Positions 33,459 to 36,711 of a DNA stretch of 42,857 nt are shown one piece after another. The notes beneath the pieces are model-generated. The model saw only the letters and a program-made list of their open reading frames with translations. It did no database searches and was not told the origin of the DNA. Each line of letters starts with the position of its first letter. Position 1 is the stretch's first letter. A program made the position numbers and the translations under genes. Source of the stretch: an uncultured Erysipelotrichaceae bacterium (GTDB lineage Bacteria; Bacillota_I; Bacilli_A; Erysipelotrichales; Erysipelotrichaceae); contig CAMNFS010000011.1 of assembly GCA_946537255.1 (NCBI GenBank), positions 1 to 42,857 of the forward strand, in the 5' to 3' direction.

Positions 33459-33487
33459 AAAAAAGTTCTGTTATGCTTCAGAACTTT
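33459..33487 (-). terminator. Terminator of the SSB-like gene with stop codon in the loop
   Basis: On the - strand AAAGTTCTG (33487-33479), loop AAGCATAA, CAGAACTTT (33470-33462) form a perfect 9-bp stem, continuing into TTT. The TAA stop of the SSB-like gene is inside the loop. Confidence 0.88.
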
Positions 33488-34070
33488 CAGACTGTATCCG
33501 ATCCCCGTCCTGCGGGGCTGTAAGATCAATTTCCTCATGCGCTGCCTGAGGCTCAAGGAAGGAAGATGTTTCATCTTCGGCTTCCCGGCGGAGTGTGTGT
33601 TTCTGAGGAATAATCGATGTGGTCAGTGTCTGGGGACGGCGCCTGCGGCCAAGAACAAAACTGCTGTTTACGGTAATGCTCAGTTCCGGAAGACGGTCTT
33701 CTCCGCCGCTGTTCTGCCGGATATACGCCCGGCCGTCAATCAGTACCCGGTCCCCTTCATTCAGACTGTAGATTTCCTCAGCGTGCTTTTCTCTTGCAGC
33801 AAAGGAAATGATACAGTATGGACCCTGATCATCCACAGAACGCCAGTATACCCGGCTTCCGGTTTCCCGAAGCAGAATCCCGATCATCCGGTCTCTGCCG
33901 CGGATTGTCAGTTTTCCGAAAGCCATCCGGCGGTCTCCTTCCGTGCCAAGATCGCTGCGCATGCGGGTGACACCGTCTTTGTCGATCGTTCCGATCGCGG
34001 TCACGTGATAGCAGATAATTTCCCCGGCCCTATCCCGTATCGTCTCAAATGAAAAATAATCCTTTACCAT
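33471..34070 (-). CDS. SSB-like OB-fold protein
   Basis: A 199-residue protein whose residues ~15-140 follow the bacterial SSB pattern. A first strand pair is present (CYHVTAIGTIDKDGV), then FGKLTIRGRD, then CIISFAAREKHAEEIYSLNEGDRVLIDGRAYIR, the equivalent of the SSB stretch around VVWRKQAENVANYLKKGSLV. The C-terminal 50 residues are charged and ends in ESSEA, lacking the DDDIPF tip that docks partner proteins in housekeeping SSB. It is therefore probably a divergent or accessory ssDNA-binding protein. AGGAG precedes the ATG. It follows the TetM-Rae1 fusion gene on the same strand. Confidence 0.75.
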   Translation of the reverse strand: MVKDYFSFETIRDRAGEIICYHVTAIGTIDKDGVTRMRSDLGTEGDRRMAFGKLTIRGRDRMIGILLRETGSRVYWRSVDDQGPYCIISFAAREKHAEEIYSLNEGDRVLIDGRAYIRQNSGGEDRLPELSITVNSSFVLGRRRRPQTLTTSIIPQKHTLRREAEDETSSFLEPQAAHEEIDLTAPQDGDRIQSESSEA

Positions 34071-34150: not shown

Positions 34151-36622
34151 TTATTTTTCGAAAAGTTTTTTTGCGTCTTTCATTTCCGCTTCCAGCATCC
34201 TCGCGCTGATCCGCTGAGCGCCCTGGGAAAATACGGAATTCTGTACCAGACCGTCACTGCTTGCGACGATCAGCTCACAGCTGTTCCTCAGTTCATGGGC
34301 AAGCTTTTCAATCCGCTCATCCGCGGTTTCCCCGGTCGCGGTATAGATCACCTGAAACATTCCCCGACCGGAAACAGAACCGGGATTATCCGTACGCTTA
34401 TACCCGTCAAACACCACAATCATCCGCTCTCCGGTATAGGCCTGAAAGGCACCGAGTTCATCAATCAGACGCTCTCTTGCGACACCGATCTCTTCCTTCA
34501 TCAGGCCACGGGTGGAATCGAAGGCATAGAGCATATTGTATCCGTCGATGATCCAGCACTTAGGAAGATGAACCGCCGGACGGGGCGGCTTCTGCTTTTC
34601 GGGCTCCTTCTTCTCCGGTTTCTTCTTGTTCGGATTGCGGTTGTTTCCGGAAGAAGCCGCAAGGATCGCCTTGAGTTCCTCCTCCCCGACATGGTAACGC
34701 TGATGAGTGTAGGAAGCTTCCGAGGCTTCCGTATATGGATGAACCGACATATAGGAATCGCTGTTTTCCCACGATACGGTAAACGTGCTTCCATGCGCGC
34801 AGAAGACCGACCCGGGAGGATTCCTGAGATCCGCAAGCGGATCATACCCGATCTCCTTTATCACTTCCTCGGGACTGGGACAGGGCTCATAGCCGGCTGA
34901 TTGAATCACACAGCGGCCAAGTCCTTTCGTATAGGTCAGTACCTGGCTTTGATAATTCATCAGCGTGCGCAGCGGACCCTTGCCGCAGACCTTCATGCCT
35001 GAGGGAGTTTCCTCCGCAGTAAATTCCGCTTCCCGGGTTTCAAGATCATACAGACAGCGGGAAAGCGACTGGGAAGGAAGCTGAATCTCAAACCGGCAGT
35101 ATGGTTCTAGAAGCACCGATTCGGCTTTCATGAGCCCCTGGCGGACAGCGCGTCTAGCGGCGTTGCGGAAATCTCCGCCTTCCGTATGCTTGAGATGCCC
35201 CTTTCCAGCAATCAGAACCAGCTCCGCGTCTGTCAAAGAAGCCCCGGTCAGAACACCTTTGTGCCGGATCGAGCTGAGGGCGGAAAGCGCGGCGGTCTGA
35301 AAATGCATCGGCATCTCATCCGCGCTGCATTCACTTCGAACACGGATGCCTGCTCCTCTTTCAAGAGGCACGATCCGTACGTGAACCTCGGCAAAATGAC
35401 GCAGCGGTTCAAAGTGCCCGCTTCCGATCACTTCATTGGCAATGGTTTCCTGATAGAGAATTCTTCCATCCGAAAATTTCACGGCGAGTCCGGTTTCCCG
35501 TTCCATGCGTTTCTTCAGAATCTCCGCCTGCATTTCACCCATGATCGAAATACCGATCGCGCCGGTTTCCTCATCGACCTCAACAGCCAGGGAGGGATCT
35601 TCCTCCTCCAGCTTTCTGAGATATTCCCCCAGCAGCTTGCGGTCGGAAATCCGTTCCGTTTCAAGCTCATAATGAAGGCATGGCTCAATCACCGGCCGGG
35701 GAAGATCCTTCTCCGCGCCAAGACCCATGCCGGCTTCAGTTTTCCGTAACCCCTTCAGCACCGCAATCTGTCCGCAGAATACTTCGTCAACCGTTTCATA
35801 CTCCGCGCCATGATAGATCCGGATCTGATCCACCTTCTCATCCGCATCGATCTTCTGTTTGGTTTTCAGACTGCCGCCGGTAATACGCACATGAACCAGC
35901 CGCTCTCCGTCCGCAGATGAAACCTTGAACGCCCGGGCAGAAAAGACGCCGGAATCTTCCTTTTCCTCTCCGAAAAGGGCAATTGTATCCAGAAGTTCCG
36001 TCATTTTGATGTCCTTCAGCGCGCTGCCGAAGAGTACCGGAAAAAACTGACGCGTCAAACACGCATGACGTATGAGTTCCTCCGGGATACTGCCGGTTTC
36101 AAGGTACGCGTTCATCATCGGCTCATTTACCATGGCGAGTGTTTCCTCGGCATCCTTGGAAAGCGGAATGCAGTCCTTGAAGTGCGCGTTGAGATCTTCG
36201 AGAAGCTTTGCTTCGCTGAAGTGGGAAATATCCATTTTATTGACAAAGAAAAGCACCGGAACCTGATAGAAAGCAAGCGTGTTCATGATCGTTTCGGTAT
36301 GGGCCTGCACCCCGTCTGTGCCGCTGATCAGTACAACCGCAAGATCGATTACAGAGAGAATCCGTTCCATTTCCGCGGAGAAATCCGCGTGCCCCGGTGT
36401 ATCGATCAGGCTGATTTCCGTATCCTTCCATGACAGAACGGCCTCCTTGGAATAGATCGTAATGCCATGGTCCCTCTCATCGCGGTCATAGTCGAGATTG
36501 GAATCGCCATGATCCACTCTTCCTCTTCTGCGGATAATCCCGCAGTGATACAGAAAAGATTCCACACAGGTGGTCTTTCCGGCATCGACATGGGCTAGTA
36601 TTCCTACACTGATTCGTTTCAT
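34151..36622 (-). CDS. TetM-like ribosomal GTPase fused to a Rae1/YacP NYN endonuclease domain
   Basis: An 823-residue fusion. Residues 1-654 are a complete EF-G/TetM-like translation GTPase: ILAHVDAGKTT at 8-18, switch I DERDHGITI, G3 DTPGHADF, G4 NKMD, G5 GSAL, then domains II-V. Residues ~655-687 form a flexible Lys/Pro/Glu linker. Residues 688-823 match YacP/Rae1: IIDGYNMLYAF, MIVVFDGYKR, ETADERIEKLAHEL, VASSDG and QRISARMLEAEM, carrying the conserved acidic residues. B. subtilis Rae1 cleaves mRNA in the ribosomal A site, where TetM domain IV also works, so GTPase-controlled mRNA cleavage on ribosomes is inferred. Start at 36622 gives MKRISVGILAHVDAGK; the longer frame is leader. The GTPase part may or may not confer tetracycline tolerance. 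Confidence 0.9.
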   Translation of the reverse strand: MKRISVGILAHVDAGKTTCVESFLYHCGIIRRRGRVDHGDSNLDYDRDERDHGITIYSKEAVLSWKDTEISLIDTPGHADFSAEMERILSVIDLAVVLISGTDGVQAHTETIMNTLAFYQVPVLFFVNKMDISHFSEAKLLEDLNAHFKDCIPLSKDAEETLAMVNEPMMNAYLETGSIPEELIRHACLTRQFFPVLFGSALKDIKMTELLDTIALFGEEKEDSGVFSARAFKVSSADGERLVHVRITGGSLKTKQKIDADEKVDQIRIYHGAEYETVDEVFCGQIAVLKGLRKTEAGMGLGAEKDLPRPVIEPCLHYELETERISDRKLLGEYLRKLEEEDPSLAVEVDEETGAIGISIMGEMQAEILKKRMERETGLAVKFSDGRILYQETIANEVIGSGHFEPLRHFAEVHVRIVPLERGAGIRVRSECSADEMPMHFQTAALSALSSIRHKGVLTGASLTDAELVLIAGKGHLKHTEGGDFRNAARRAVRQGLMKAESVLLEPYCRFEIQLPSQSLSRCLYDLETREAEFTAEETPSGMKVCGKGPLRTLMNYQSQVLTYTKGLGRCVIQSAGYEPCPSPEEVIKEIGYDPLADLRNPPGSVFCAHGSTFTVSWENSDSYMSVHPYTEASEASYTHQRYHVGEEELKAILAASSGNNRNPNKKKPEKKEPEKQKPPRPAVHLPKCWIIDGYNMLYAFDSTRGLMKEEIGVARERLIDELGAFQAYTGERMIVVFDGYKRTDNPGSVSGRGMFQVIYTATGETADERIEKLAHELRNSCELIVASSDGLVQNSVFSQGAQRISARMLEAEMKDAKKLFEK

Positions 36623-36632
36623 ACTCACAGGG

Positions 36633-36641
36633 ATTATAACA
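36633..36641 (-). promoter_or_regulatory. Proximal extended -10 (P2) of the TetM-Rae1 gene
   Basis: TGTTATAAT ends 10 bases before the ATG at 36622. The predicted transcript would have about 4 leader bases, and the gene has no Shine-Dalgarno site, so P2 would give a leaderless mRNA bypassing the upstream attenuator. Confidence 0.55.
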
Positions 36642-36684
36642 AAAAATAAAGGCGTACCATCGGTGCTAAGTTCCGATCTCCGCC
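36641..36684 (-). terminator. Attenuator terminator in the TetM-Rae1 leader
   Basis: On the - strand GGCG (36684-36681), GAG, AUCGG (36677-36673), loop of 9, CCGAU (36663-36659), GGUA, CGCC (36654-36651), then UUUAUUUUUU (36650-36641). The 5' arm AUCGG can instead pair with an earlier CCGAU at 36698-36694, giving a competing antiterminator. Confidence 0.65.
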
Positions 36685-36690
36685 TCCTTC

Positions 36691-36711
36691 TCAATCGGCA
36701 CGATTCATCAT
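36691..36711 (-). CDS. Leader uORF 2 (MMNRAD) upstream of the TetM-Rae1 gene
   Basis: A six-codon frame ATG ATG AAT CGT GCC GAT TGA with GGAGGAG about 8-10 bases upstream. Its last two sense codons contain the CCGAU that can pair with the terminator 5' arm, so ribosome position on this frame could decide between terminator and antiterminator. Short length makes it uncertain, but its placement fits a leader peptide. Confidence 0.45.
   Translation of the reverse strand: MMNRAD

Follow-up and report, generated by a model that had tools for sequence, protein, structure and literature searches.

The window analysed here, a stretch of 42,857 nucleotides from an uncultured Erysipelotrichaceae bacterium, encodes a protein in which a translational GTPase related to EF-G and to the Tet ribosomal protection proteins is covalently joined to a Rae1-type NYN endonuclease. 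Rae1 cuts mRNA inside the ribosome, an activity known for only a few bacterial enzymes. Our preferred reading, to which we assign a probability of roughly 0.6, is that this protein is the cell's only Rae1-type endonuclease, moved from the rlmB-sigH operon and fused to a dedicated EF-G/Tet-like GTPase, and that it serves as a housekeeping, ribosome-directed mRNA endonuclease for which the GTPase is a helpful but dispensable delivery module. Behind this reading stand the architecture itself, the intact GTPase motifs and acidic residues of the NYN domain, an ancestral slot found empty, a conserved helix in the linker, and halves that occur alone elsewhere.

The architecture was already known: Atkinson 2015 (PMC4342817) reported it in two sentences for ten Clostridiales species and suggested a role in resistance, and those proteins, a Tet part with a YacP-like NYN domain in the same arrangement, almost certainly belong to the same family as the window protein. 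What is new is the wider range of the fusion, its replacement of the separate Rae1 gene, the placement of its GTPase in a clade of its own, the conserved linker helix and a natural deletion series; resistance, by comparison with that earlier report, looks unlikely. The literature searched, which did not extend to two works on Rae1 (Leroy 2017; Condon 2018, on distribution, where the fusion may be mentioned), contained no functional study of the fusion. In public annotation a Monoglobus copy is called a 'translation factor GTPase family protein', and the fusion of Agathobacter rectalis (L100:3616-6417) is labelled TetM/TetW/TetO/TetS family tetracycline resistance, which is probably a misannotation.

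Architecture of the fused protein

The initial annotation had read one 823-codon frame here, and the frame is indeed uninterrupted, opening with ATG and encoding 823 amino acids before its stop; the strand, missing from that reading, is minus (Table 1). The GTPase motifs that it listed (AHVDAGKTT, DTPGHADF and NKMD) are all present, and Pfam matches to GTP_EFTU (E 1.5e-46), EFG_III, EFG_IV and EFG_C give the protein the motifs and domain order of the EF2/EF-G family. Its proposal of a Rae1-type NYN domain at the C-terminus was confirmed by the profile search it had called for, with NYN_YacP matching at E 4.1e-35 (121.7 bits against a cut-off of 24.6) and the Bacillus subtilis YacP/Rae1 chains 5mq8 and 5mq9 matching in sequence at E 2.8e-21; the signature stretches IIDGYNML, VVFDG, TADERIEKLA and SSD align in register with those chains. 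Two features lie beyond that annotation, namely a conserved helix within the linker and a genome without a second NYN_YacP gene: a search of the organism's own genome found the fused gene to be the sole one, and the remaining translational GTPases scored far lower than the fusion.

Table 1. Features of the fused gene, in window positions and protein residues
Feature	Position	Strand	Basis
Whole gene: translational GTPase, linker, NYN_YacP; 823 aa	34151..36622	-	ORF and Pfam
G domain, residues 3-215 (HVDAGKTT, DTPGH, NKMD, GSALK)	35978..36616	-	Pfam GTP_EFTU, motifs
Domain II, about residues 228-300	35723..35941	-	weak Pfam EF-Tu_D2/EF-G_D2 matches below cut-off; EF-G/TetM fold match over residues 1-597 or more
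Domain III, residues 313-383	35474..35686	-	Pfam EFG_III
Domain IV, residues 387-501	35120..35464	-	Pfam EFG_IV; missing from G002 and G751
Domain IV loop HLKHTEGGDFR, residues 476-486, at the position of the Tet SPVST loop	35165..35197	-	alignment with TetM/O/W/S and EF-G
Domain V, residues 503-583	34874..35116	-	Pfam EFG_C
Post-domain-V module, SVFCAHG type, residues 584-626	34745..34873	-	alignments; no Pfam match there; pLDDT 81-91
Linker, Lys/Pro-rich, predicted mostly disordered, residues 627-687	34562..34744	-	pLDDT <50 at 631-647 and 658-682
Conserved linker helix EEELKAILAAS, residues 647-657	34652..34684	-	helix in model; motif count; present in GTPase-less forms
NYN_YacP (Rae1-type) nuclease domain, residues 691-819; Asp693, Asp739, Asp768, Asp790	34166..34552	-	Pfam and alignment to YacP/Rae1

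An AlphaFold2 model of the protein (64 sequences) reached a mean pLDDT of 83.9. In a structure search residues 1-597 of this model matched ribosome-bound EF-G with Z scores of 30-34 and TetM (3j9y) with 29.5 over 599 residues, in a list that was filled by EF-G and that covers the GTPase part while saying nothing on the NYN part. The NYN part alone, modelled without an alignment, came to a pLDDT of 40, and its likeness to 5mq8 rests on sequence.

The nuclease domain and its linker

The NYN domain is homologous to that of B. subtilis Rae1/YacP (PDB 5mq8, 5mq9) and carries the same acidic residues. By alignment, equivalents of Asp7, Asp53, Asp81, Asp104 and Glu85 (B. subtilis numbering) are all found in the window protein, and the four catalytic aspartates are retained in 116-117 of 117 fusions. 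Rae1 of B. subtilis is, however, a free protein of 170 aa encoded beside rlmB and sigH, whereas the NYN domain of the window is fused and located elsewhere. From the SARE serine on, the C-terminal tail of free Rae1 is nearly constant (47-54 aa), compared with 17-62 aa in fused copies and 18 aa in the window protein. We considered whether a basic tail (KWRRG) would mark free Rae1 and dropped the idea, the strict pattern being present in only 12 of 28 free copies.

A further difference lies N-terminal of the NYN domain, where the fused copies, unlike free Rae1, have the linker helix. In the AlphaFold2 model this helix is predicted at residues 647-657, between two stretches of low pLDDT (631-647 and 658-682), and its motif, which lies a median of 48 residues ahead of DGYN, was found in 108 of 117 linkers, whereas shuffled linkers gave 4.7 on average. 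The helix is retained in forms without the GTPase, which suggests that it belongs with the nuclease; it may be a docking element in its own right.

Occurrence among genomes

Profile searches found NYN_YacP in 34 of the 58 genomes of the window's family and, over the cut-off, in 39 of the 392 genomes of its phylum. Nearly all of these matches lie in frames of 600-1100 aa, that is, in fusions, and the short frames are accounted for by the edge of a contig in G019 and by a split gene in G303. Since the fusion protein is missing from 24 of the 58 family genomes, it is not essential. A scan of named genomes gave at least 598 matches, and the best 80 loci, which we examined, are nearly all from Clostridia; among these 80, the NYN domain shares a frame with the GTPase domains in 74, including one with a broken, weakly scoring NYN part (L106) and another in which the GTPase part is broken (L148). 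The remaining six of the best 80 comprise one split gene (L113), three loci cut by a contig end (L134, L151, L169), a Ruminococcus MAG with a GTPase ORF and the NYN on a different contig (L153), and a GTPase-only member in Bifidobacterium polysaccharolyticum (L181:2529-4550), whose genome is without NYN_YacP and which likely acquired the gene by horizontal transfer. Because dozens of family and phylum genomes carry the same fusion, as do 74 of the best 80 of at least 598 named matches, it is not a product of chance or of an assembly accident.

The split gene G303 comes from the window's own genus. Here (L075:9000-9160) the GTPase ORF ends in a Lys-rich linker and the NYN domain follows in the -1 frame, the two ORFs overlapping by 4 bases, with an A_AAA_AAG heptamer in the GTPase frame ahead of the stop. 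A programmed frameshift, a natural fission and a homopolymer sequencing error are each possible.

Loss of the separate Rae1 gene

A census of the phylum to which Eubacterium sp. 14-2 belongs, covering 299 genomes, found the GTPase family in 20, in 18 as the fusion and in two (G637, G662) as GTPase-only genes of 651-654 aa accompanied by a free Rae1 between rlmB and sigH. None of the 18 fused genomes in this census has a second NYN_YacP. Free Rae1 is found in 136 of the 281 census genomes without the fusion, against none of the 18 with it (Fisher p 2e-5, uncorrected for kinship).

The rlmB-sigH slot holds a NYN gene in 18 of 20 sampled genomes with free Rae1 and in six of six others (G637 and G662 included), as it does in B. 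subtilis and C. difficile. In all eight fused genomes in which it could be checked, with both genes on one contig, the slot contains no NYN and the gap is 10-291 bp. The window's own genome has a single non-NYN ORF after rlmB before the contig ends. The fused gene lies elsewhere than between rlmB and sigH, the usual place of Rae1/YacP, and from a slot that is empty in fused genomes and occupied by Rae1 in others it follows that the Rae1 gene has moved out of its ancestral operon and is now present as the fusion. This relocation and fusion apparently happened once. Fused and free copies separate in the NYN tree, one very long branch excepted, as would fit a single fusion event, and the GTPase tree sets all fused copies on one side of a branch (support 81); the GTPase trees gave no order for fused and GTPase-only forms.

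Shortened forms and halves found alone

Most species of a sister genus (g3) encode the complete protein of about 810-870 aa, and several have lost parts of it. G002 and G751, 64% identical to one another, cleanly lack domains IV and V and keep the G domain, domains II and III, the linker helix and the NYN domain, with GTPase motifs and acidic residues intact. Six others (G761, G769, G776, G773, G746 and the more divergent G768) encode NYN-only proteins of 201-218 aa, five of which start at the linker helix. The family GTPase was found in none of these six genomes, only general translational GTPases of 24-35% identity; four of the six are less than 80% complete, and G761 and G776 are 94% and 95% complete. 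In a tree the two forms without domain IV group together (98), as do five of the GTPase-less forms (99), within a group that includes full-length forms, and because of this nesting the absences of domains IV-V and of the GTPase look like secondary losses. The coupling between GTP hydrolysis and positioning of the nuclease that the initial annotation proposed cannot be obligatory, because one subclade has dropped the whole GTPase and kept the nuclease.

At five loci (L246, L247, L248, L250, L251) the GTPase-less NYN gene directly follows an ORF that resembles, by eye, uracil-DNA glycosylase and also adjoins one that resembles tRNA-dihydrouridine synthase. Members consisting of the GTPase only were found in Bifidobacterium, Ligilactobacillus salivarius and Paenibacillus; the one on a Ligilactobacillus salivarius plasmid (L215:3986-5920), which annotation labels a tetracycline resistance protein, adjoins a divergent rpsN gene (for ribosomal protein S14).

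Genomic surroundings

Family genes have no conserved neighbourhood: the commonest neighbour cluster, ABC-transporter-like by eye, was near 14 of 119 and occurred on either side of them, and no conserved resistance or mobile context was seen among the neighbours. In the window the gene upstream encodes a TelA family protein (Pfam PF05816; 36835-37809, minus strand) and the ORF downstream, of 199 aa, has no Pfam match (33471-34070, minus strand). An Rfam scan of the window returned one tRNA and nothing else. At 36640-36700 on the minus strand there is a terminator-like hairpin with a T-run; its end lies about 19 bases upstream of the start codon, and two very short ORFs precede it. Such hairpins, at 90 bases or less before the gene, are about twice as common for family genes (25/121) as for neighbouring genes (41/443), a control that includes operon-internal genes; no conserved leader was seen, and we do not claim an upstream attenuator.

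Relation of the GTPase to Tet proteins and EF-G

Release of Tet proteins, which like EF-G bind over the A site, is linked to their hydrolysis of GTP (PMC8161019). The fusion shares the five-domain GTPase of Tet(M)/Tet(O), from which it differs in its loop III, in the additional module after domain V and in forming its own clade. With EF-G as the root, the tree unites Tet(M/O/W/S) with a Tet(36)-like protein (99) and sets the fusion family apart in a clade of its own (99), placed by sequence as the sister clade to the true ribosomal protection proteins. Against the NCBIfam tet_protect model, with a cut-off of 775, the window protein scored 373.5 bits and further family members 378-425, compared with 878.6 for a Tet(M) control. 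Tetracycline is displaced by loop III of domain IV, which reads SPVST in Tet proteins. In Tet(M) this loop carries a proline that reaches C1054 (PMC8161019); SP[VA]ST is found in this domain IV loop in none of 108 fusions, which have KHTEGGDFR at that place. In these respects the family GTPase is no typical TETRACYCLINE protein. EF-G and EF-G2 share the fold and the GTPase motifs of the fusion and are its best structural matches, but with about 29% identity in structural alignments and a different domain IV tip sequence, and EF-G lies outside the group formed by Tet and the fusion family. The SVFCAHG-type module, predicted to be folded, is common to the fusion and its GTPase-only relatives.

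Discussion

Translation-dependent mRNA cleavage is established for B. subtilis Rae1, which probably acts in the A site (PMC10100781, PMC6613710, PMC12320835). By analogy with EF-G and TetM, the GTPase part of the fusion may bind the ribosomal factor site, in which case the flexible linker of about 60 residues would hold the nuclease beside the A site. EF-G-like proteins and Rae1 would compete for one A site, so the two parts would have to act in turn. A probable order, itself guesswork, is that the GTPase binds, hydrolyses GTP and leaves or clears the A site, whereupon the tethered nuclease could enter that site and cut the mRNA that a paused ribosome exposes. The fusion would likely serve in translation-dependent decay of mRNA or in rescuing paused ribosomes, a housekeeping function, with the GTPase raising local concentration or selecting the target and being inessential to the nuclease. 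Against this reading, the NYN occurs without the family GTPase in five or six g3 species, where delivery by the GTPase is hence not required, and the GTPase-only forms in Bifidobacterium (with no NYN at all) and Ligilactobacillus point to a GTPase job independent of the nuclease. A more ambitious version, in which the GTPase gates the nuclease by probing paused ribosomes, vacating the A site after GTP hydrolysis and handing it to the tethered Rae1-type domain to cut the mRNA, in which the fusion replaces free Rae1 across much of the gut Firmicutes and in which the linker helix is a docking element, is tentative and in our view somewhat less probable than its negation.

The suggestion of Atkinson 2015 (PMC4342817), taken up in part by the initial annotation, was that the protein protects the ribosome against tetracycline with an RNase as accessory, domain IV expelling the drug and the nuclease removing the stalled mRNA. 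Tet proteins are the closest non-EF-G relatives, as a sister clade with support of 99, and the Agathobacter rectalis copy bears a Tet family label. The replaced domain IV loop in all 108 fusions, model scores of 373-425 bits where TetM reaches 879, and neighbours free of conserved resistance or mobile context all speak against this suggestion, as do the two species without domains IV-V: the loss of domain IV, the part reaching the drug site, with GTPase core and nuclease kept, argues against drug protection as the conserved function. We therefore find tetracycline protection by the fusion unlikely and the suggested combination with cleavage quite improbable; what stands of the earlier reading is a Rae1-type NYN domain with its catalytic residues intact, tethered covalently to a TetM/EF-G-like GTPase and plausibly active on ribosomes, whereas protection from the drug finds no support.

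Alternatively, two independent halves, an EF-G-like or EF-G2-like accessory translocase or recycling factor and an ordinary Rae1, might have been joined for co-expression only. That each half occurs alone in other lineages, that one same-genus species has two ORFs overlapping by 4 bases, and that the linker is long and disordered would fit such an arrangement; fused forms are nevertheless the rule and splits rare, and the fusion has persisted in two orders and in Clostridia with its linker helix conserved, which makes the idea doubtful. It is also conceivable that the NYN processes rRNA or tRNA and that the GTPase brings it to ribosomes or assembly intermediates. NYN_YacP was first proposed for rRNA/tRNA maturation (Anantharaman and Aravind, as cited in PMC4342817), and the ancestral neighbours rlmB and mrnC are rRNA genes, but B. 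subtilis Rae1, the only tested member, cuts mRNA during translation (PMC10100781, PMC11780869), and we regard this proposal as highly improbable.

The preferred reading, of a housekeeping mRNA endonuclease delivered by its own GTPase, bears on resistance catalogues as well: our findings suggest that many gut commensals are annotated with a tetracycline-resistance gene that is probably absent from them, and the label on fusions of the Agathobacter rectalis type may inflate resistome counts. The natural variants without domain IV, without the GTPase or without the nuclease make the ribosome choice of Rae1 directly testable, and the family is a good test bed for the recruitment of ribosome-entering nucleases. 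The fusion is real and widespread, and in many gut bacteria it stands in for the separate Rae1 gene.
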